64,000 nucleotides of DNA from Basidiobolus meristosporus CBS 931.73 (lineage: Eukaryota; Basidiobolomycota; Basidiobolomycetes; Basidiobolales; Basidiobolaceae): positions 79,068-143,067 of the forward strand of contig MCFE01000174.1 of NCBI GenBank assembly GCA_002104905.1, given 5' to 3'. Shown here piece after piece: positions 3,494-64,000 of this stretch. The notes beneath the pieces were generated by a model, which worked only from the letters and a program-made list of their open reading frames with translations, had not been told where the DNA came from and searched no databases. The number at the start of each line of letters is the position of its first letter. The first letter of the stretch is position 1. The translations under genes and the position numbers were made by a program.

Positions 3494-3903
3494 GAACTCA
3501 GTCATAATGATCAAGCAGAGAAATTGAACACATAGCTGCATTCAGCTCAGAAAGGCACAAAGAAAAGAAAAGAAAGCAACAAAACCACAGAATACTTGGT
3601 TGCTGTAATCACCGTAAGAAGCCAGGACACTGTGTAAGAAAATGCAAGAAGAAATAGGCAGACAAAAACAGAAACTGGAGCTGGCAAACCATATACCTAC
3701 AGATGAACAGTTATTTGCAGCTCTACAAGAGAGAGCAAGTAACCAAAGTAATGAATGATATTTTGACTTGGGAGCATCACAGCATATTTGTAGTATAAAG
3801 GAATGGCTCAGCAACTTGAAGACTATTCCCATTAGCTAGGTTTATCTGGGAGACAACTATGCACTGGAAGATACCACCAGTGGGTCTATACTTCCAAATG
3901 TGA

Positions 3904-4161
3904 GTGATATCTCAGGGGCTTTCAGCAGCAAAACTGACTGAAGTACACTACATCCCTGGAGTAGCTAAGAACCTACTCTCAGTCAGTAAAGCAACTGCTG
4001 AGGGACTGAAACTTATTTTTACTAAGCTGAACTACTCAATATTGGGTAAAAATGGGCAAAAATTAGCTTTGGGAATCAGAGATCACAATTATTACAAGTT
4101 ACAGTGCAATATCATTGTACCTGAGTATTCCAATATTGCTAAAAATGATGAGACCAACTGA
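3904..4161 (+). pseudogene. Copia A2 protease-to-pre-integrase fragment
   Basis: This 85-codon stretch matches the copia segment between protease and integrase: EVHYIPGVAKNLLSVSKA, then GIRDHNYYKLQ. It is the longest open piece of A2 and has the same text as the start of A1 (position 1 onward). The stop at 4159-4161 falls where A1 reads on through ETWHRRLGH, so it is a degraded copy and not a gene. Confidence 0.85.
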
Positions 4162-5886
4162 GAGACATTACAAAGGAGGCTTGAACATACTCCACATCAA
4201 AATGGAGTAGCAGAACAAGCAAATTTATCAATAGTAGAGATGGGAAGAACTCTGCTTTATGACAAGGCAATGGACTAAAAGTTTTGGGCTGAATCTGTGA
4301 CTACCATGATAAACATCAAGAATAGATGCCTAACAACTACACTGTGTGATTCTACAATCTTTGAAGCATATACAGGCAAAAAACCAGACCTCCAGCCCCT
4401 GAGGATACTTGGCAGTGATGTCTTTTATTACATCCATGACAAATAACTCTCAAAGCTGAAACCAAAGAGTAGAAAAGGGATCTTGCTTGGGTATTGTGTT
4501 GATACTAGTGGGTATAGAGTGTATGATGACAAAATTGAGAAGCTGATCAAGAGCATGGATGTTGTATTTGATGAGAATTCAGATTAGAAAGCCACAGAAA
4601 TCATTGGCCAGTTGCATGATGATGAACTCAACACTAGTGAAGAAGACATGTGCCAAATTCAGCCAGAAATGGAACAAAATTCTACCAGTTCCAGATCAGA
4701 GCAGATTATTCCTAAGTCTACCAGATTAAGAAATGCCCTTGGATCCTGGTGGCAGACATCCAATGATCATGAAGAAGCTTATCTTGCCTGATGTGCCAAA
4801 TCTCAGATTCTGGAACAGGCAATGCAAAGTCCAGATGCTTCTATGTGGCAATAAGCCATGCAGGAGGAGTCCCATCACTGATCAAAGCAAAAATGTGTGC
4901 ACTGGTAGACTTATCAAATGGGAGAAAGCCAATAGGAAGTGGATGGGTCTACAAGATCAAGATAACTTCCAATGTTATTGCTGATAAGTACAAAGGTAGA
5001 TTGGTGGCTGAAGGCTTTTCCGCAATCCAGTGAATGTTGACATACATATGCAGCAAATTATGCCAAGTCAGTCTAAGTACATCAGGGACATTTTAGAAAC
5101 TTTAAATCAAAATTGCAAGCCTGCAGCTACCTCAATGGACAATTATCTAAAATTGGGCAAATCCTAAGTTTTAGGTGAAAACTGCTCAAATATGGACCAA
5201 AACTCTCCCTTTCAGTCAATGGTTGGGAGCCTGATGTACTTGATAGTGTCTGCATATCCTGATATTGCCGTGGCAGTTGGAATAGTCAGGCAATTCATGC
5301 AGAATAATGGATCAGATCAAAATACAGCAGTTTAGCAGATTTTTAGATGTCAGAGTGGTACCATAAATATGGCACTAGAATACTCTGGAGCAGATAATGG
5401 GTAGAAATTTGATGGTTATAGTGATTCAGATCAGGGTAGAGATCTGATTGCTAGATGCTCTACCATTGAGTATGTATTTCTTTATGCTGGTGCAGCTATT
5501 ACTAGGAATTGCAACAAACTGGCAACTGTGGCCCATTCAATAACTGAAGCTGAATATATGGCTGCTTGCCAAGCAACTAAGTAGGCTATAGGGCTATGGA
5601 AATTATTCAATGACTTAGGCTTTAATTCTGATGGACTAACATGTATTTACAAAGATAATCAATGATGTATTTCATTAGCTATGAATCCTACTAATCATGC
5701 CAGAACCAAGTATATAGTTATAGAACACCATCTTGTGAGGGAAGCTGCAGAAAATAACTTAGTAGAGTTGGTATACTGTTCTTATCACAAAATAGTGGCA
5801 GATATATTGACAAACCCACTAGCTAGATCACAATTTGAGAATCTTGTGGAGGAATAGGATTAAGAAATTGTTTAGTTGAGGGGGAG

Positions 5887-27105: not shown

Positions 27106-30100
27106 ATGAAAATCTCCGCCCCAAAGCTTTTGTTCATTCTTTCCGGAATTTCCGCCATCAGTGGTGCTGCTCTGCAACGCCGTCACAATGGTGAAATTCA
27201 CGAAGTAACAAAGCCCGCATACGATATCAATGATATCCTGGGTAACGGAGGAGGCGAAGGTCCGGGATCGAATTCTGGCAGCAACGGCGATTATGGCAAA
27301 GCAGGCAACGGTGCCGGCAAAGGTGACGAAGAAGAATGTGCAAACGGTCACGGAGAAACTGGGGGTAATGGAGGAGGTGCAGGTCCAGGTCCAGGATATG
27401 GTGCAGGACCTGGGGCCGGTGGAAACGGCGGCGGGTCAGGGCCTGGTGGTAATGGAGGTGGTGAAGGACCTGGATATGGCGCCGGCCCCGGAGCTAGCGG
27501 AAATGGCGGTGGTGCAGGTCCAGGATATGGTGCAAGCCCAGGAAATGGAGGAGGCGTAGCACCTGAAGGTGGAGCTGGTGGAAGCGGCGGGCCAACAACT
27601 TATGACACTGGAAATGGCGCTGGATCAGGCCCAGGTGGTAACGGTGGTGGAGCTGGTGGCAACGGAGGTGGCGAAGGTCCAGGATACGGTGCCGGTGGAA
27701 ATGGTGGTGGTACTGGACCAACATCATATGATACAGGAAGTGGTGCCGGATCTGGACCAGGAGGAAATGGTGGTGGTGGTGAAGGACCAGGATATGGCTC
27801 TGGCTCTGGGGCCGGTGGAAACGGAGGCGGTTCTGGTCCAGGATATGGGGCCGGACCTGGAAATGGTGGCGGCATAGCTCCTGGAGGCGGAGCTGGCTCA
27901 AGTGGTGGACCAACTTCATATGATACCGGAAGCGGTGCTGGCTCTGGACCGGGGGGTAATGGAGGCGGTGAAGGTCCAGGATATGGCTCTGGCCACGGGG
28001 ATAGTGGAAATGGTGGAGGTTCCGGACCAGGTTACGGTGCTGGCCCCGGAAATGGTGGTGGTGGTGGACCTACCTCATATGATACCGGAAGTGGTGCTGG
28101 TTCAGGACCTGGCGGCAATGGAGGCGGTGAAGGGCCAGGATATGGCGCTGGCCCCGGAACTGGCGGAAACGGCGGTGGTGAAGGGCCCGGTGGCAATGGA
28201 GGAGGTTCCGGACCAGGTTACGGTGCTGGCCCCGGAAATGGCGGTGGTGCTGCACCTGGTGGTGGAGCTGGTGGGAGTGGTGGACCTACTTCATATGATA
28301 CCGGAAGTGGTGCTGGTTCAGGACCTGGCGGTAATGGAGGCGGTGAAGGGCCAGGATATGGCGCTGGCCCCGGGACTGGTGGAAACGGTGGTGGTGAAGG
28401 GCCCGGTGGCAATGGAGGAGGTTCTGGACCAGGTTACGGTGCTGGCCCCGGAAATGGCGGTGGTGCTGCACCTGGAGGCGGAGTCGGCAGCAGCGGTGGA
28501 CCAACTTCATATGATACCGGAAGCGATTCTGGATCAGGGCCAGGTATTAGCGGCGGTGAGGGACCAGGTGCTGGTGGCAATGGAGGAGGCTCCGGACCAG
28601 GTTACGGTGCTGGCCCCGGAAATGGTGGTGGTGTAGCACCTGGTGGTGGAAGTGGTGGACCTACTTCATATGATACTGGCAATGGTGCCGGATCAGTACC
28701 AAGTGGTAATGGTGGTGGTTCTGGACCAGGATATGGCTCTGGACCCGGGAATGGTGGTGGAGAGGCACCTGGTAGTGGTGCTGGAGGAAGTGGTGGACCA
28801 ACTTCGTATGATACTGGCAATGGTGCCGGATCTGGACCGGGATATGGCGCTGGCCCTGGGGCTAGTGGAAACGGCGGAGGATCTGGACCGGGATATGGCG
28901 CTGGCCCTGGAGCTAGTGGAAACGGCGGAGGATCTGGACCGGGATATGGCGCTGGCCCTGGAGCTAGTGGAAACGGCGGAGGATCTGGCCCAGGTGGTAA
29001 TGGTGGCGGTTCTGGACCAGGATATAGCGCTGGACCCGGAAATGGCGGTGGAGCTGGCGGAAGTGGTGGACCTACTTCGTATGATACCGGTAATGGTGCC
29101 GGATCAGGACCAGGTGGTAATGGCAGTGGTGAAGGGCCAGGATATGGCGCTGGCCCTGAGGCTGGTGGAAACGGTGGAGGATCCGGACCTGCTGAGAATG
29201 GAAGTGGTGAAGGACCAGGATACGGCGCTGGCCCCGGAAATGGTGGTGGTGTCGCGCCCGGTGGAAGTGGTGGGCCAACAAGCTATGATACTGGAAGCGG
29301 AGCTGGATCAGGACCAGGTGGTAATGGCGGTGGTGAAGCTCCTGGATATGGAGCTGGCCCTGGAGTTGGTGGAAACGGCGGAGGATCCGGACCTGGAGGG
29401 AACGGAGGTGGTGAAGGACCTGGATATGGTGCTGGACCCGGAGCTGGTGGAAATGGTGAAGGTGTAGCACCTGGAGGTGGGGCTGGTGGAAGCGGTGGGC
29501 CAACAAGCTATGATACTGGAAGCGGAGCTGGATCAGGACCAGGTGGTAATGGCGGTGGTGAAGCTCCTGGATATGGAGCTGGCCCTGGAGTTGGTGGAAA
29601 CGGCGGAGGATCCGGACCTGGAGGGAACGGAGGTGGTGAAGGACCTGGATATGGCGCTGGACCCGGAGCTGGTGGAAATGGTGAAGGTGTAGCACCTGGA
29701 GGTGGGGCTGGTGGAAGCGGTGGGCCAACAAGCTATGATACTGGAAGCGGAGCTGGATCAGGACCAGGTGGTAACAGCGGTGGTGAAGGTCCTGGATATG
29801 GAGCTGGTCCTGGAGTTGGTGGGAATGGAGGTGGCGAAGGACCTGGATATGGCGCTGGACCCGGAGCTGGTGGAAATGGTGGAGGTGTAGCACCTGGAGG
29901 TTGGGCTGGTGGAAACGGTGGGCCAGCAACTTACAACACTGGAAGTGGCTCTGGGACAGGACCTAGTGGTAACGGTGGTGGTGAGGGACCAGGATACGGA
30001 GCCGGTCCTGGGGCTGGTGGAAATGGCGGAGGTGAAGGACCCGGTTATGGCGCTGGTCCAGGAGCTGGTGGAAACGGAGGCGGTGAAGCACCAGGATACG

Positions 30101-30210
30101 GGACTGGTCCAGGAGCCGGAGTTGGGGGTAACGGAGGCGGAGTAGGACCCGGAGCTGGAGCTGGAGGAGGCTTCTACGATACCTCCAACGTGTTTGATAT
30201 CGACTTCTAG
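27106..30210 (+). CDS. Secreted Gly-rich repeat protein, silk-like, 1,034 residues
   Basis: The uninterrupted frame starts with a signal peptide (MKISAPKLLFILSGISAISG, likely cut after the AA at about residues 21-22), followed by an RR pair that could be a Kex2 site. After a short acidic linker, almost the whole protein is low-complexity Gly/Pro/Asn/Ser. About 13 modules begin with (G)GPTSYDTGSGAGSGPG and contain GPGGNGGG, EGPGYGAGPG and APGGGAGGSGG blocks. Module length varies (about 45-90 residues). The C-terminus GFYDTSNVFDIDF is acidic and non-repetitive. There is no membrane anchor. GPGGX and GPGYG motifs are known from elastic silks and some wall proteins; a cell-surface or matrix role is my inference. 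The gene has a TATA box 79 bp upstream and AATAAA at 30314-30319. Confidence 0.85.
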   Translation: MKISAPKLLFILSGISAISGAALQRRHNGEIHEVTKPAYDINDILGNGGGEGPGSNSGSNGDYGKAGNGAGKGDEEECANGHGETGGNGGGAGPGPGYGAGPGAGGNGGGSGPGGNGGGEGPGYGAGPGASGNGGGAGPGYGASPGNGGGVAPEGGAGGSGGPTTYDTGNGAGSGPGGNGGGAGGNGGGEGPGYGAGGNGGGTGPTSYDTGSGAGSGPGGNGGGGEGPGYGSGSGAGGNGGGSGPGYGAGPGNGGGIAPGGGAGSSGGPTSYDTGSGAGSGPGGNGGGEGPGYGSGHGDSGNGGGSGPGYGAGPGNGGGGGPTSYDTGSGAGSGPGGNGGGEGPGYGAGPGTGGNGGGEGPGGNGGGSGPGYGAGPGNGGGAAPGGGAGGSGGPTSYDTGSGAGSGPGGNGGGEGPGYGAGPGTGGNGGGEGPGGNGGGSGPGYGAGPGNGGGAAPGGGVGSSGGPTSYDTGSDSGSGPGISGGEGPGAGGNGGGSGPGYGAGPGNGGGVAPGGGSGGPTSYDTGNGAGSVPSGNGGGSGPGYGSGPGNGGGEAPGSGAGGSGGPTSYDTGNGAGSGPGYGAGPGASGNGGGSGPGYGAGPGASGNGGGSGPGYGAGPGASGNGGGSGPGGNGGGSGPGYSAGPGNGGGAGGSGGPTSYDTGNGAGSGPGGNGSGEGPGYGAGPEAGGNGGGSGPAENGSGEGPGYGAGPGNGGGVAPGGSGGPTSYDTGSGAGSGPGGNGGGEAPGYGAGPGVGGNGGGSGPGGNGGGEGPGYGAGPGAGGNGEGVAPGGGAGGSGGPTSYDTGSGAGSGPGGNGGGEAPGYGAGPGVGGNGGGSGPGGNGGGEGPGYGAGPGAGGNGEGVAPGGGAGGSGGPTSYDTGSGAGSGPGGNSGGEGPGYGAGPGVGGNGGGEGPGYGAGPGAGGNGGGVAPGGWAGGNGGPATYNTGSGSGTGPSGNGGGEGPGYGAGPGAGGNGGGEGPGYGAGPGAGGNGGGEAPGYGTGPGAGVGGNGGGVGPGAGAGGGFYDTSNVFDIDF
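29284..29733 (+). repeat. Two near-identical 225-bp tandem units in the Gly-rich gene
   Basis: TATGATACTGGAAGCGGAGC occurs at 29284, 29509 and 29734, exactly 225 bp (75 codons) apart. The first two units are identical or nearly so along their length, which points to recent unequal exchange or slippage inside the gene. An earlier pair of 72-codon modules near 28,080-28,510 is also close. Confidence 0.9.
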
Positions 30211-59000: not shown

Positions 59001-60299
59001 TGTACATTCTCAGGCTTGTCCCCTTCGCTGCTTGACGAATCAATATCTGGCGCTCGATCAATCGTCTTGAAGATATGGTAGGCTGCTCCTTGGGCGCTGG
59101 CGAATATCCCTACGTTTGGTGCAACCTCCCAGAGGGCGTATGCCCCTACAGTAATACCCATGAAGACAGTCATTACGTCTTCACTGGTCATTTCTCCGCT
59201 CGAAATAAGTTTGGCCCCATACCAAAACGAGAGCGAGTCTGGAGCAAAGACCAAAAACATGATGAACCCAAAGCCTAAGCCATTCAAAATAGCTTTTTTC
59301 ATCCCGCTCCTGTATGCCGACTTGAGATGCTTCACGTAGGCGTCGTATTCACGTTTCTGACCATTGAAGACAAACACAGTTCTGATGGAAGAGAAGGCCT
59401 GCTCGGCCACTCCGCCTGCTGCTGAGTATGCATCATGCTCCTCTGCTGAGGTCTCCACCATATATTTTGCAATTACAATACAACCAGCTGTCCAGAGAAA
59501 TAGGGGGTTAATATACAAACATTTCCCAAGTCTATACTGAAATGTACTTGCCGATCATGAAAGGCAACAGCGAAAGTAAAACCAATGCCAAACGCCAGCC
59601 TCTAGTAAAGCTGATGACATACCCCGAAAGGAAAGTGACCGAATTCGAGATGACAATTCCTACTTTTTCCGCCATTCCCTCGAAGATTACTTGCGTATCT
59701 GCACACAGGTGAGTCGTCAGAGAATCTGCCTGTTTCTTGCCAGGGTTCGAATCATCACCATCAGTGAGTGCACTGCCGCCATCGTGCCATGCCATATCCT
59801 GCCGTAATACCGCATGCAAATATCTTTCACGGATCAGTTTTCCTTGATTCTCGGCAGAGAGCGTCCAGAAGTACATCTGCCCGTACGCAGCCACGAAGAT
59901 TATTAACCCCAAAATGAAAAAAAAGCGAACACTGCTAAGGACTTGTGTCCCAGCATCCATGGAGGAGAGGTCTGTTGTGATGTTTCCGAAAGCAATTGCG
60001 ATAAGGGATTGCCCAACACCGGTGGTTATAGAGCAGATGATTGCCAACCTGTTGAATTAAAGCCTGCGTGTAAGTTAAAGGAAGACGTGACGGAAGATGG
60101 TCATGACGCACAAGATATACAACTGGTCCAAAGGGGTTGCAAAGCGATAAAGTGAGAGATATGATACTGAGTGTATTGTAGCTTTTGTCTCCTTTGAGCT
60201 GCCCCAACATTCAAAAAGGAACCATCGCCACGGCCTAGAGCACCTTTGTGTAGAGTCATTCGCAAGCGGTAATGGCTCAGTATTCGAAGCTGGAACCAT
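56056..60299 (-). CDS. ABCB-type full ABC exporter (P-glycoprotein family)
   Basis: Six exons (minus): 60299-60112, 60048-59552, 59487-58825, 58769-57853, 57798-57044 and 56980-56056. They give 1,314 residues with phases closing throughout. The layout is TMD1-NBD1-linker-TMD2-NBD2. TMD1 begins after [17 protein letters not shown] (about residue 55). NBD1 has Walker [10 protein letters not shown] (about 433), signature LSGGQKQR (about 535) and Walker [11 protein letters not shown] charged Lys/Ser linker follows (about 640-715). NBD2 has GPSGCGKST (about 1,100), LSGGQKQR and ILLLDEAT. All ATPase motifs are intact, so both sites should be active. Intron 2 (59551-59488) has a GC-AG pair with the consensus GCAAGT donor. 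Members pump lipophilic compounds, lipids or peptides out across a membrane; the substrate cannot be told. Start 60299 is the first ATG in frame. Being next to the telomere is common for fungal transporters. Confidence 0.93.
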
Positions 60300-61245
60300 C
60301 AATGTTAGTGTTTGAAGAGTTGATGATGTTGTAAACCGAAAGATGTACGAGCTGAAGTCTGTGTTCAAGAATCAACTCCGCCCTTTAGGAGTTAGGAGAC
60401 CACTGCAAACGTGTGAGCCCACACCAGGAGTAATTGGTTAGTGTTGTCATTGTCAATGCATATGCATCCCTATACCCTGTCGATACGAAATAAACTTCCC
60501 AAATCGTACATATACATTAAGATTAGATATATGTATGTCACTGTGGCTCATTTCTGAGAATGCCTCTGCTCATAGACTCATACATGCATGAATGCTGTCA
60601 GGGTTCGAATACTCCATAGATATGAGAAGGGATAGGGAGTTTATAAAGCTGAGTCAGTAGGAGTAACCACACCAGTTATATCATGATATCACTATGGTTG
60701 GTTGACTTCGCCATATGCCGTCAACATAACACATCAATCGCTGTTAGATCCTCTCCCCCTCCCTATCGTATGCCTATCCATAATTTCGCCCATCACTACA
60801 ATAACATCACAGATATGAACACTCAGTAAGTTCACGATAGCTTGACTACTGTATTACTTCATATAGATGCCTTGACGATGCTCTTGACTCAGTCCTTTCT
60901 TTAGATAGATCCTAAGCCATCCATTTTATGACCGTGAGATTGCTCACATGAATGGTCTAGATTTCTTCCTTAGATTCAGCAATCATTGATATCATTATAA
61001 TGTCGTAGGGGTGGGTGGAGTACAGCAATGCCTGAAAATTTAAGTACCATGCTTATATATGGAGACTTTCCCGGATTTCTGAGGTGCCATCTGCATGGCA
61101 CAAGGATCATCACCGAAGATAAGTAAATGGCGCTTTTAACAGTTTGTGGTGGTGGTGAGGGGGGGGGGGTTGGCTGCCCATGCCATTGAAGACGGAGTTT
61201 AGTGTAGAGCTTATACTATATCCCTGTAGGATCATCCTTACTTGT
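60300..61245. other. Subtelomeric spacer upstream of the ABC gene
   Basis: No gene seen. It holds the presumed ABC promoter (AT-rich TATATGTATG near 60,527) and a run of 11 or more G at about 61,160-61,170. The spacer ends where the first TTAGGG-like joint begins. Confidence 0.5.
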
Positions 61246-61265
61246 AGGGGTTAGGGTTAGGGGGA
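61246..61265. repeat. Interstitial telomere-like tract
   Basis: AGGGGTTAGGGTTAGGGGGA marks the junction between chromosomal DNA and the innermost retrotransposon fragment. Similar short tracts occur at the other copy joints: about 61,957-61,966 (TAGGGGAGGG), 62,241-62,250, 62,923-62,936 and 63,243-63,272. Confidence 0.85.
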
Positions 61266-61958
61266 GACAGTCACCAACAGGTGAAATCTTTATTTCAGTT
61301 GAAACAAAGAAGCCAGCGCTACTGCTGTAGCTTTTATACCAGAGTGTGTAGCTGAGGGGAATTTGTAGGTAAGTGAATAAGGAGAGATGATAGTTCTTCT
61401 GTACTCAAGACACTGTTTGGTGGGAAGGGGGGTAGCAAGAGGGGTAAGAATGATTTGTGAACAACATTGATAAGGGGAATGTGATACAAATTGGTAGTCA
61501 TCATAAAGAGAGTGTACTGCTTCAGATATTGATGCCAAAGGTCTGCCAAGTACTCTAGGTAGGCCAGCGTGGGCTTTTCTGACTGCAGAATATATATGAG
61601 CAAATTTCTTGACTTCAGGATCTCCAAGTATTATTCTCCAGCAGGAGCCAGGTGTGGTGTGGTGTGTTCTCTTCCAGGTTTTGATCCGTGGGTTGTTGCA
61701 GTGGTGAAGTCTGAGATATAATCTGGTTCTAAGGTAGAGAAGTCTGATCTTATAGGGCATAAACCCAAAAGCACCAAGAATAGCATGTCTTTAGGGGCAT
61801 TCAGGCAAATGAGGCACCAAGGAGGTAATGCACCATACTGCAAACTTGTCAAGCTTAGTGCAGTCTCTAGAATTAAGAGAGAGAAGTGGTAAGCCAAATT
61901 CCAGGGCAGGGAAGATAAACTGCTTGAGTAGAAGGAGGCAGCTAGTAGCTGAAGTTGT
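61266..61958 (-). mobile_element. Telomere-joined LINE fragment, copy a
   Basis: The minus strand encodes the C-terminal end of a non-LTR reverse transcriptase. Text seen in order (with a stop and frameshift): LKQFIFPALEFGLPLLSLNS, KLDKFAVWCITSLVPHLP, ILGAFGFMPYKIRLLYLR, then LWHQYLKQYT, INVVHKSFLPLLLPPFP and STEELSSLL. The first part fits the post-catalytic thumb of LINE RTs (K-L-D...I..LvP.LP...HA..GaFGf). It ends with AATAAA (61294-61289) about 24 bp before the TTAGGG-like joint at 61,246-61,265. The 5' end is cut at about 61,958, where copy b's 3' end begins. Confidence 0.8.
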
Positions 61959-62240
61959 AGGGGAGGGAAAGTCACCAAGGTAGGTGAAATCTTTATTTGA
62001 TTTCAGACAAGTCTAACTACAAATAAAGAAGCCAGCTGGGAATAGAAGACTCCCAAAGTAGAAACTAAGTTGAATATGAATCAATCTAAGCTAAAGTTAA
62101 GGCAGTATCCCATAGTACACTGGAGTTCAGGTTCATGGGGGAGTGAAGTAGATAAGCTTGAGAGATATAATAATCTCTTAAGAAGTGGGTAACAGTAGGT
62201 GAATGGGAGTTTTTGATAAGTGAAGTGAATCTTGAGAGCA
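61959..62240 (-). mobile_element. Telomere-joined LINE fragment, copy b
   Basis: About 280 bp consist of the shared 3' block (AATAAAGATTTCACC, then TTGGTGACTTTCCCTCCCC on the minus strand) plus some 200 bp upstream of it, cut off at the 5' end. It carries no useful reading frame beyond 78 codons (62,322-62,086 spans the next joint). Confidence 0.75.
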
Positions 62241-62922
62241 GTAGGGGGGGAGGGAAAGTCACCAAGTTGGTGAAATCTTTATTTGAGTCAAGAGCTAATC
62301 TAAGTACAAATAAAGAAGCCAATTAAGAGGTCTAGAACCTCTCTAATAAGTAATGCAATTTATGTTTTGTTTCATCTCTAATGTTTGTTTCAATAAAGTA
62401 AAGCTCATCAGGGGTAAATATGAAATTCAAGGGTTTTGGGGGAAGTACAAATTGTAGATGTTTCTGATCAATATAATCCAAGACTAGAGCCCAGCCTGGG
62501 ATTAGATGTAGTAGGAAAGGTGTGTGGACTTGTAAGTAGCTCCGCCATATAGATCTTAGATGGTCCTGAGCCAGTAGTCTTGGTTTCTCAGCTTTTTGAA
62601 GTTTTGAAGCAAGCTCTGTTACTACAGCAGAGCCAACCAGGGTGTGCCAGCAGGAAGATTTCAGGGAGGAGTTAGATTTAAGCCATTGTTTGATGGAGGG
62701 GTTATGTGATTTCTGAAGTTTCACTAGGAAGGAAGCACGGAGATAGACCATTTGGATTTGGTATGGGTAGAACCCAAAGGCTCCATTGGTTGCATGGATA
62801 TAGGGAGATACTGGAAGATACGGTACCAAGGATCTGATACACTGATGGAGAAATTTATCCCGGCGGTCAAGTTCTCTGGAGGTTAGGGGTATAATGTGGA
62901 GACTAAATTCAAGTACCAGCAG
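62241..62922 (-). mobile_element. Telomere-joined LINE fragment, copy c
   Basis: This is the longest readable copy. The minus strand is open through the RT C-terminus: SRELDRRDKFLHQCIRSLVP, SPYIHATNGAFGFYPYQIQM, LRSIWRSYLQVHTPFLL, LQFVLPPKPLNFIFTPDEL, with the stop at 62332. The frame runs upstream into the joint and the 3' block of copy d, which proves that the 5' end is cut. AATAAA and the conserved 3' block follow at about 62,280-62,255. Confidence 0.82.
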
Positions 62923-63242
62923 TAGGGTTAGGGGGGAGACAGTCACCAACAGATGAAATCTTTATTTCAGTTGAAACAAAGAAGCCAGTGCTATTGTTGT
63001 AGCTTTGATACAAGAGTGTGTAGCTGAGGGGAATTTGTATGTAAGTTAATAAGAAGTGATGATAGTTCTTCAGTGCTCAAGACACTGTTCAGTGGGAAGG
63101 GGGGTAGCAAGAGAGGTAAGAATGACTTGTGAACAACATTAATGAGGGGAATGTGATAAGGATTGATATTCATCATAAAGGGAGTGTGCTGCTGCAGATA
63201 TTGCTGCCAAAGGTCTGTCAAGTACTTCAGGTAGGCCAGCTT
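62923..63242 (-). mobile_element. Telomere-joined LINE fragment, copy d
   Basis: This copy belongs to the same subfamily as copy a (shared 3' end GTTGGTGACTGTCTCCCC on the minus strand). The open part (63,221-62,991) reads DLWQQYLQQHT, INVVHKSFLPLLLPPFPLN, STEELSSLL and SKLQQ before the stop. It is truncated at the 5' end at GCTGGCC (about 63,240), a point that lies inside copy a near 61,567. A TTAGGG-like tract precedes copy e. Confidence 0.8.
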
Positions 63243-63350
63243 GGGTTAGGGTTAGGGTTTAGGGCTTAGGGGGAGGAAAGTCACCAAGTAGTGAAATCTT
63301 TATTTACTTATGACAAGTATCTAAAGAAGCCAAGTTAATCTGAAGTTATT

Positions 63351-63469
63351 CCTAGAAAGCTAGGTCTGAGAGATATCTTCCTGGTAAGCCAGGTCTGAGA
63401 GTTGAGAAGCTGAGTGGTACTATAATTCCTGGTTAGCTAGGTCTGAGAGAGGTTTCCTGGAAAGCCAGG
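63351..63469. repeat. Array of four covarying 14-nt hairpins
   Basis: Four 14-mers form 5-bp stems with 4-nt loops: CCTAGAAAGCTAGG (63351), CCTGGTAAGCCAGG (63380), CCTGGTTAGCTAGG (63428) and CCTGGAAAGCCAGG (63456). Each is followed by TCTGAGAG or a close variant. The fourth base pair changes from A-T to G-C (one copy has a G-T pair), so pairing is kept while the sequence changes. Confidence 0.7.
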
Positions 63470-63719
63470 CCTGAGAAGTGAGAGTCTGAATATATCTGAG
63501 CTAAGTTATACTGGTTTGCGGTAGCTGAATTGTGGCCGGAATGGCCAGTAAACTGGGGGAACTGAAATGAATTTCTGGGCGATCACTGGCCAAATTTACT
63601 AGGCAAATCTGGCCAATTAGCATTTCAAGGATTTCAGCCAATCAGAGCCTTTACTTTGCCCGATGGTTGATCAAGCCATCTCCCAATGAGCACACAACAA
63701 TTTATTAATCAAATTTTTG

Positions 63720-63785
63720 CTGGATCCAGGATTTGAACCCACAACCATGGGTATGGAAGGGTTAGGGATAACCACAAGGCTAAGT
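63720..63785 (-). other. tRNA-like segment with RNA polymerase III A and B boxes
   Basis: The minus strand carries TAGCCTTGTGGTTA (A-box-like) and, about 40 bp on, GGGTTCAAATCC, which fits the B-box consensus. The flanks do not pair as an acceptor stem and no proper anticodon arm forms, so it is not a functional tRNA gene. It may be a tRNA-derived SINE piece or a chance match. Confidence 0.4.
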
Positions 63786-63791
63786 GTTCTT

Positions 63792-64000
63792 GGTTAGGGT
63801 TAGGGTTAGGGTTAGGGTTAGGGTTAGGGTTAGGGTTAGGGTTAGGGTTAGGGTTAGGGTTAGGGTTAGGGTTAGGGTTAGGGTTAGGGTTAGGGTTAGG
63901 GTTAGGGTTAGGGTTAGGGTTAGGGTTAGGGTTAGGGTTAGGGTTAGGGTTAGGGTTAGGGTTAGGGTTAGGGTTAGGGTTAGGGTTAGGGTTAGGTTAG
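63792..64000 (+). repeat. Telomere, (TTAGGG)n
   Basis: About 34 tandem TTAGGG units run to the window end, with one shortened unit (TTAGG) at the last positions. The G-rich strand reads toward the end, as at a right chromosome end. Confidence 0.98.

Follow-up and report, generated by a model that had tools for sequence, protein, structure and literature searches.

How a chromosome end comes to carry a row of retrotransposon pieces, all facing the same way beneath a TTAGGG cap, is the question raised by positions 61260-64000 of a 64,000-nucleotide (nt) stretch of DNA (hereafter, the window) from the fungus Basidiobolus meristosporus CBS 931.73. The window is C396:79068-143067 in our contig numbering, and it ends at the final base of that 143-kb contig. 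We conclude, with a probability of roughly two in three, that the stack found there is one of many chromosome-end arrays made by a guild of telomere-dedicated non-long-terminal-repeat (non-LTR) retrotransposons, which would be primed by the end itself and re-capped by telomerase. The position, orientation and anatomy of the pieces, the lengths of their joints and the gene content of the families are direct observations on the assembly.

Structure of the stack

The initial annotation had described five minus-sense pieces lying head-to-tail, each with the same 3' block and with the telomere outermost, and this arrangement was confirmed. The pieces occupy 61260-63793, the 3' end of each faces inward and carries the common 3' block, and they belong to four families, designated A-D, of which B and C are long interspersed nuclear elements (LINEs), A is a short interspersed nuclear element (SINE) and D has a first open reading frame (ORF1) only. 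The features are as follows, with identities and nucleotide positions referring to family references.

61251..61262, plus strand: innermost joint, TTAGGGTTAGGG, adjoining unique chromosomal sequence
61260..61958, minus strand: copy e, family B LINE, 5'-truncated (C-terminal part of ORF2 and 3' tail), 92.8% to family B, reference nt 3705 onward, ~700 nt
61960..62241, minus strand: copy d, 5'-truncated 3' end of family D (ORF1-only element), 95.7%, reference nt 923-1203, 282 nt
62244..62922, minus strand: copy c, family C LINE, 5'-truncated (C-terminal part of ORF2 and 3' tail), 96.6%, reference nt 3904-4579, ~680 nt
62923..62930, plus strand: joint c/b, TAGGGTTA
62931..63247, minus strand: copy b, family B LINE, 5'-truncated, last 317 nt, 98.1%, reference nt 4093 onward
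63248..63268, plus strand: joint b/a, TTAGGG with the variants TTTAGGG and CTTAGGG
63269..63793, minus strand: copy a, family A SINE, full-length, about 515-520 nt, with a 5' end that recurs elsewhere
63276..63334, minus strand: 3' tail of copy a, with two predicted hairpins and AAUAAA in the 3' arm of the first (fold z score -1.9)
63729..63739, minus strand: putative B box of the SINE, GGTTCAAATCC, 43 nt downstream of the A box
63771..63782, minus strand: A-box-like motif of the SINE, 2 mismatches to the consensus
63792..64000, plus strand: terminal telomere, (TTAGGG)n, 209 bp to the contig end

The supposition that the whole stack consists of LINE fragments therefore held for copies e and b (family B) and c (family C) but not for a and d; two copies had been read as C-terminal LINE parts, and such parts are present in e and c. 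Likewise, the different 5' cut points ascribed to copies a-d are present in b, c and d, and also in e, but a is a complete element, its 5' end being shared with copies at L017, L034, L037, L054, L059, L061, L066, L069 and L074. This recurrent 5' end and the tRNA-like boxes ruled out copy a as a LINE fragment. The joints, described earlier as short TTAGGG-like tracts, are very short and telomeric, but those between e and d and between d and c hold only TAGGGG, without a complete TTAGGG.

The common 3' block was found in the genome 1,467 times in the forward and 131 times in the reverse direction, and chance was ruled out as its source by a reversed control pattern, which gave 0 matches. Copy c has 40 full-size genome matches at an identity of at least 96% (itself counted), near contig ends. 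The flank just inside the stack (59600-61262) has no second full-size match in the genome, the other matches being only 120 and 57 bp long; similarly, no second copy of its size was found for the C318 flank, for which 40 of 2,616 candidates were scored. Neither an Rfam search of the stack nor an ARAGORN search of the window found a tRNA or other RNA family.

Position and orientation in the genome

All data derive from a single assembly of 89.0 Mb in 1,311 contigs, in which TTAGGG 24-mers number 7,428 forward versus 81 reverse, so that telomeres lie nearly all at right contig ends; the shortage of left telomeres is probably a quirk of the assembler. Exact family-specific 3' ends numbered 1,346 in total, with forward/reverse counts of 379/26 for A, 615/47 for B, 142/19 for D and 110/8 for C. 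Placement was determined for the first 100 matches per family in contig order (400 copies on 212 contigs). Distances are estimates: the contigs are numbered by their size ranks sorted alphabetically (monotone for 62 known sizes), and the other sizes were interpolated. All 400 copies are found no more than 25 kb from the end to which they point; this is telling only for the 244 copies in contigs longer than 60 kb, the test being weak or trivial for the other 156 in shorter contigs. The count for these is 244 of 244 and takes in all 52 listed copies of SINE A. Moreover, on C291 and C591 both ends bear copies, which are flipped in orientation from one end to the other.

A dispersed repeat of ~350 bp, used as a control, occurred 18 times on the plus and 22 times on the minus strand and in the same test lay near the end it pointed to in 2 of 26 cases; compared with the uniform placement of the listed copies, this led us to reject an ordinary interspersed LINE. 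Reverse transcriptase (RT) matches, of which the first 65 listed of 225 were placed with the help of 30 known contig sizes, gave a comparable result: 59 lie within 12.3 kb of a right end and 3 at left ends, so that 62 fit. Thus, where internal 3' blocks with poly(A) tails, or copies in both orientations relative to the telomere, had been named beforehand as signs to the contrary, the listed copies point to ends and no poly(A) run occurs in the joints displayed. Conversely, when telomere-array starts were picked regardless of elements, 22 of the first 30 (111 in all) had a member of A-D within 1.5 kb.

Four families with one tail

Families B and C are about 4.5 and 4.6 kb long, respectively. 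The 5' region of B is common to two loci; in C, ORF1 is open over 432 codons (L044) and ORF2 has 949 codons (L042); the ORF2 products of the two are 50% identical over 667 residues. In family B, the 5' untranslated region has AACCCTAACCCTAA, and the start of ORF1 shows by eye a zinc-ribbon-like motif, CPNCGN...CKC (both at L015:600-1530).

Family D, about 1.2 kb long, has one 242-codon ORF and encodes no RT. Its protein is homologous to ORF1, with 35% identity over 162 amino acids to B (2e-23) and 25% over 128 amino acids to C (3e-12). The ORF spans 240-242 amino acids in four of five copies, and the pooled ratio of nonsynonymous to synonymous differences (pN/pS, uncorrected throughout) is 0.24, the value for family C ORF2 being 0.31 (14 copies). 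With its diverged, maintained ORF1, family D seems to form a Gag-only lineage of its own. Its 5' end consists of a 101-nt tandem repeat, which varies in copy number and contains CCTAACCC (L041:6900-7266, L070).

Family A, ~0.52 kb long, is, as judged from its sequence, a SINE with tRNA-type RNA polymerase III promoter boxes and a 3' tail common to the LINEs. Its B box is exact, its A box has 2 mismatches and the boxes stand 43 nt apart; such pairs numbered 0 in a 61-kb control read on both strands.

The tails of A-D in the window fold alike, with AAUAAA in the 3' arm of a stem, a UCACC/GGUGA-type hairpin, a pyrimidine run and CCCC, which is usually followed by UAA, giving CCCCUAA in most copies. 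The fold z scores were -1.9, -3.8, -4.8 and -4.6 for A, B, C and D, for which 7, 0, 0 and 0 of 200 shuffles, respectively, folded as well. At L020:112 and L030:464 we noted 3' blocks that by eye fit none of the four families, and more families of the guild may exist.

LINE proteins and the telomerase gene

The Pfam domain RVT_1 was found in ORF2 above the cut-off in both C (E = 1.3e-20) and B (E = 1.6e-25), and the best solved relative of C is L1 ORF2 (E = 2.7e-11). A model of the first 260 residues of family C ORF2 reached a predicted local distance difference test (pLDDT) value of 79, and Foldseek matched it to APE1 (E = 2.6e-10, template-modelling score about 0.6). In an alignment of 17 sequences, B included, residues Y97, G129, D130, N132, D175, D206 and H207 do not vary, and the Glu of the ET motif is replaced by Asp in B, C and the protein P0002; the Pfam endonuclease match was weak and below the cut-off, for B only. 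The proteins P0001-P0003 point to relatives in other Basidiobolus genomes. Families B and C are LINEs with an RT and, as the family C model and the invariant residues indicate, an N-terminal endonuclease of the apurinic/apyrimidinic (APE) type. An endonuclease domain, the search for which had been advised, is thus present, and an endonuclease-mediated route is possible. The motifs of the restriction-like endonuclease (CCHC, RHD/N, and R/KPD or RAD) were found neither in C ORF2 (949 amino acids) nor in the B ORF2 piece (683 amino acids, to the C-terminus), and with 0 of 3 motifs, membership of B and C in the CRE type was rejected.

ORF1 and ORF2 lie in one frame with UGA-CUA between them in 10 of 10 copies spanning the joint (7 B, 3 C; e.g., L041:5200-5270 and L040:2260-2340). 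UGA-CUA is a context that favours readthrough. Because the first Met of ORF2 (residue 59 in C, 142 in B) comes within or past the endonuclease motifs, readthrough is the simplest reading, and the reading frames suggest that ORF2 is made in this way after ORF1. The genome also encodes a TERT RNA-binding domain, at C880, in two adjacent matches, the second of which holds one stop, taken for an intron edge.

Joints and the origin of the arrays

Among 108 distinct joints, TTA stands just before the G-run in 82, versus 3 of 75 control G-runs. TTAGGG occurs once in 54 of these joints, is absent from 24 and is never present more than five times. The interstitial tract before the G-run has a median of 4 nt and a maximum of 30 nt, whereas terminal tracts, measured on 31 contigs, have a median of 211 nt and range from 117 to 297 nt. 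Since insertion into arrays of ~200 bp would be expected to leave long tracts, which were seen in 0 of 108 joints, addition to ends with little or no telomere is favoured.

We therefore favour the following course of events for the arrays. RT and an endonuclease of APE type would come from the LINE families B and C. The contribution of family D would be limited to an ORF1/Gag-like protein, and family A would take part as a SINE. Presumably, the LINE RT recognises the 3' RNA tail common to all four; A and D must borrow an RT because neither encodes one, and the common tail would explain how. Pairing of the CCCCUAA of the RNA with the G-rich 3' strand, at an end that is short, eroded or broken, would let this strand prime reverse transcription, which would fix the orientation with the RNA 3' end inward and yield 5'-truncated copies. 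Telomerase would then re-cap the new end, and erosion of the cap would allow the next element to be added. The initial annotation had likewise proposed that such elements extend chromosome ends in alternation with telomerase; this is supported in part, by the location at ends, the fixed orientation, the very short telomeric joints, the LINE machinery and the presence of a TERT gene. Beyond these, we infer that ends act as primers, that A and D use the LINE RT, that the elements are still active and that readthrough occurs.

In a rather unlikely alternative, of the kind known for SART/TRAS or MoTeR, the APE-type endonuclease would nick TTAGGG inside the terminal array, target-primed reverse transcription would insert the element there, and the long tracts would later be lost by breakage or contraction. 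The endonuclease fold and residues in the LINEs agree with such a route, and excerpts of PMC7367193 describe MoTeR joints ranging from half a repeat to more than 20 and interstitial tracts of more than three repeats that break. Uniform insertion into a 200-bp array should nevertheless have left frequent long tracts unless contraction is nearly complete, and both the 30-nt ceiling, set against terminal tracts of at least 117 nt, and the 24 joints without any TTAGGG speak against it.

Improbable, in our estimate, is that break-induced replication and ectopic exchange between ends shuffled a few old insertions, with little current retrotransposition. Break-induced changes of arrays are documented for MoTeRs (excerpts of PMC7367193), internal and opposite-facing copies exist (C558 and C726, see below), and three cut points were each found twice (D 515, D 1165 and B 3972). 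Against such shuffling, 85 element-to-element joints (overlaps removed) show all 16 inner-outer family orders. On the inner side, 10 of these joints have an A that is entire or almost so; the other 75 have pieces that are for the most part truncated, with 72 distinct cut points. Moreover, identity to the reference copies is 97-99% for most of the long LINE pieces, the pN/pS values are 0.24-0.31, and seven pieces are shorter than 50 nt. These ultra-short copies, of 34-48 nt, consist mostly of the 3' hairpin tail (L022 and L055 of D; L013 and L043 of B; L021, L066 and L074 of A) and perhaps arose where reverse transcription halted early, at the stem of the tail. An assembly artefact, in which repeats were collapsed or mis-joined at contig ends, is most improbable and was rejected as the main cause, for although telomeres lie nearly only at right contig ends in this one assembly, the sequenced stacks vary in the order of their pieces, in cut points and in joints, and left-end copies face the other way, which neither collapse nor random mis-joining would be expected to produce.

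Several observations weigh against end-primed addition by the guild. Some of the 24 joints lacking TTAGGG may be products of end-joining, and the apparently intact endonuclease (bar the Glu to Asp change) makes cutting of telomere repeats possible. Among the first 65 listed RT matches, two break the placement rule and one, on C217, is ambiguous. The first exception is a B and D stack with a CCCTAACCCTAA joint (L082, C558:96600-98400), ~97 kb inside a 218-kb contig, which may be an internalised end, a fusion or a mis-join; the second is an RT match at C726:58442, ~12 kb from the right end and facing away from the near end. Both fall outside the 100 listed copies of family B. Furthermore, 8 of the 30 sampled arrays have no A-D nearby, so that the guild is not at every end; one of them (L046) is a short interstitial array, and the other seven are TTAGGG on other sequence. 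Growth of chromosome ends is itself deduced from the anatomy. Finally, the TTA before the G-run may have been templated by the RNA instead of stemming from a pre-existing telomere.

If TTA was copied from the RNA, in which CCCCUAA follows most tails, the end that received the element did not have to be telomeric. A broader version of end-primed addition would make the guild a second, general end-healing system, in which any eroded or broken 3' end able to pair with CCCCUAA is extended and telomerase only re-caps, with ORF1 and ORF2 fused by readthrough of UGA-CUA, and a living intermediate between telomerase-made telomeres and HeT-A/TART. We put this version forward tentatively, regarding it as somewhat more doubtful than probable.

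Comparison with known systems

The HeT-A, TART and TAHRE (HTT) elements of Drosophila lie head-to-tail at chromosome ends, 5'-truncated and with the RNA 3' end inward, and have a poly(A) tail. The present set resembles them in that a Gag-only element stands beside RT-bearing ones; unlike Drosophila, B. meristosporus has TERT, TTAGGG caps, a hairpin tail ending in CCCC(UAA) and a participating SINE. The likeness of family D to HeT-A is one of Gag-only organisation, its protein resembling the ORF1 product of B and C, the LINEs of this genome; the HTT elements are assigned to the Jockey clade in excerpts of PMC10088271.

With SART1 and TRAS1 of Bombyx (R1 clade), families B and C share ORF1 together with an ORF2 carrying endonuclease and RT at telomeric repeats (PMC4700185, in excerpt). 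The same excerpts describe the 3' untranslated region of these elements as needed and propose that it anneals to the target, and they report only full-length copies at telomeres, unlike the mostly 5'-truncated copies and very short tracts found here. Also fungal are MoTeR1/2 of Pyricularia and FoTeR of Fusarium, which are telomeric, with the 5' end outward and truncated copies, MoTeR2 being a non-autonomous partner (PMC12857005 and PMC7367193, in excerpt). According to excerpts of PMC12857005, FoTeR is a 2025 addition that falls, together with MoTeR1 and Cnl1, into the clade with a restriction-like endonuclease. These CRE-type elements have a C-terminal restriction-like endonuclease, unlike the N-terminal APE-type domain predicted in B and C.

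As in stringent LINE/SINE pairs (concept in excerpts of PMC3747384), the SINE ends in a stem-loop tail common to its LINEs; unlike in those pairs, the tail is followed by CCCC(UAA), able to pair with the telomere, and the listed SINE copies in contigs longer than 60 kb are all near an end. The proposed reaction would also resemble that of telomerase, in that a CCCUAA-bearing RNA is copied onto the 3' end of the G-strand; it would differ in its kilobase templates and in an RT joined to an endonuclease, and a separate TERT is present. Among the open-licence papers listed, we found none describing a tRNA-type SINE dedicated to telomeres or telomere elements in Basidiobolus, and the string "telomer" occurs 0 times in PMC11105155.

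The exchange of telomerase for retrotransposons in Drosophila is a long-standing question, and a possible intermediate state could be studied here, in a fungus that keeps TERT and TTAGGG caps and has Gag-only, RT-bearing and SINE elements beside most of the sampled telomere arrays. The set brings LINEs of APE type, and not of CRE type, to fungal telomeres with an unusually complete range of partners; it includes a candidate telomere-dedicated SINE and a compact RNA tail that may act as a telomere-priming module.

Further observations

Terminal TTAGGG stands directly on other sequence, at about position 1500, in L048, L050, L053, L057, L060, L062 and L068; in L050 and L057 the array lies on copia-like coding DNA and in L060, by eye, on a truncated tRNA gene. 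This suggests that broken ends are also healed directly with TTAGGG. Elsewhere in the window, 27106-30210 holds a 1,034-codon open frame over tandem repeats with periods up to 225, which would encode a Gly-rich protein.

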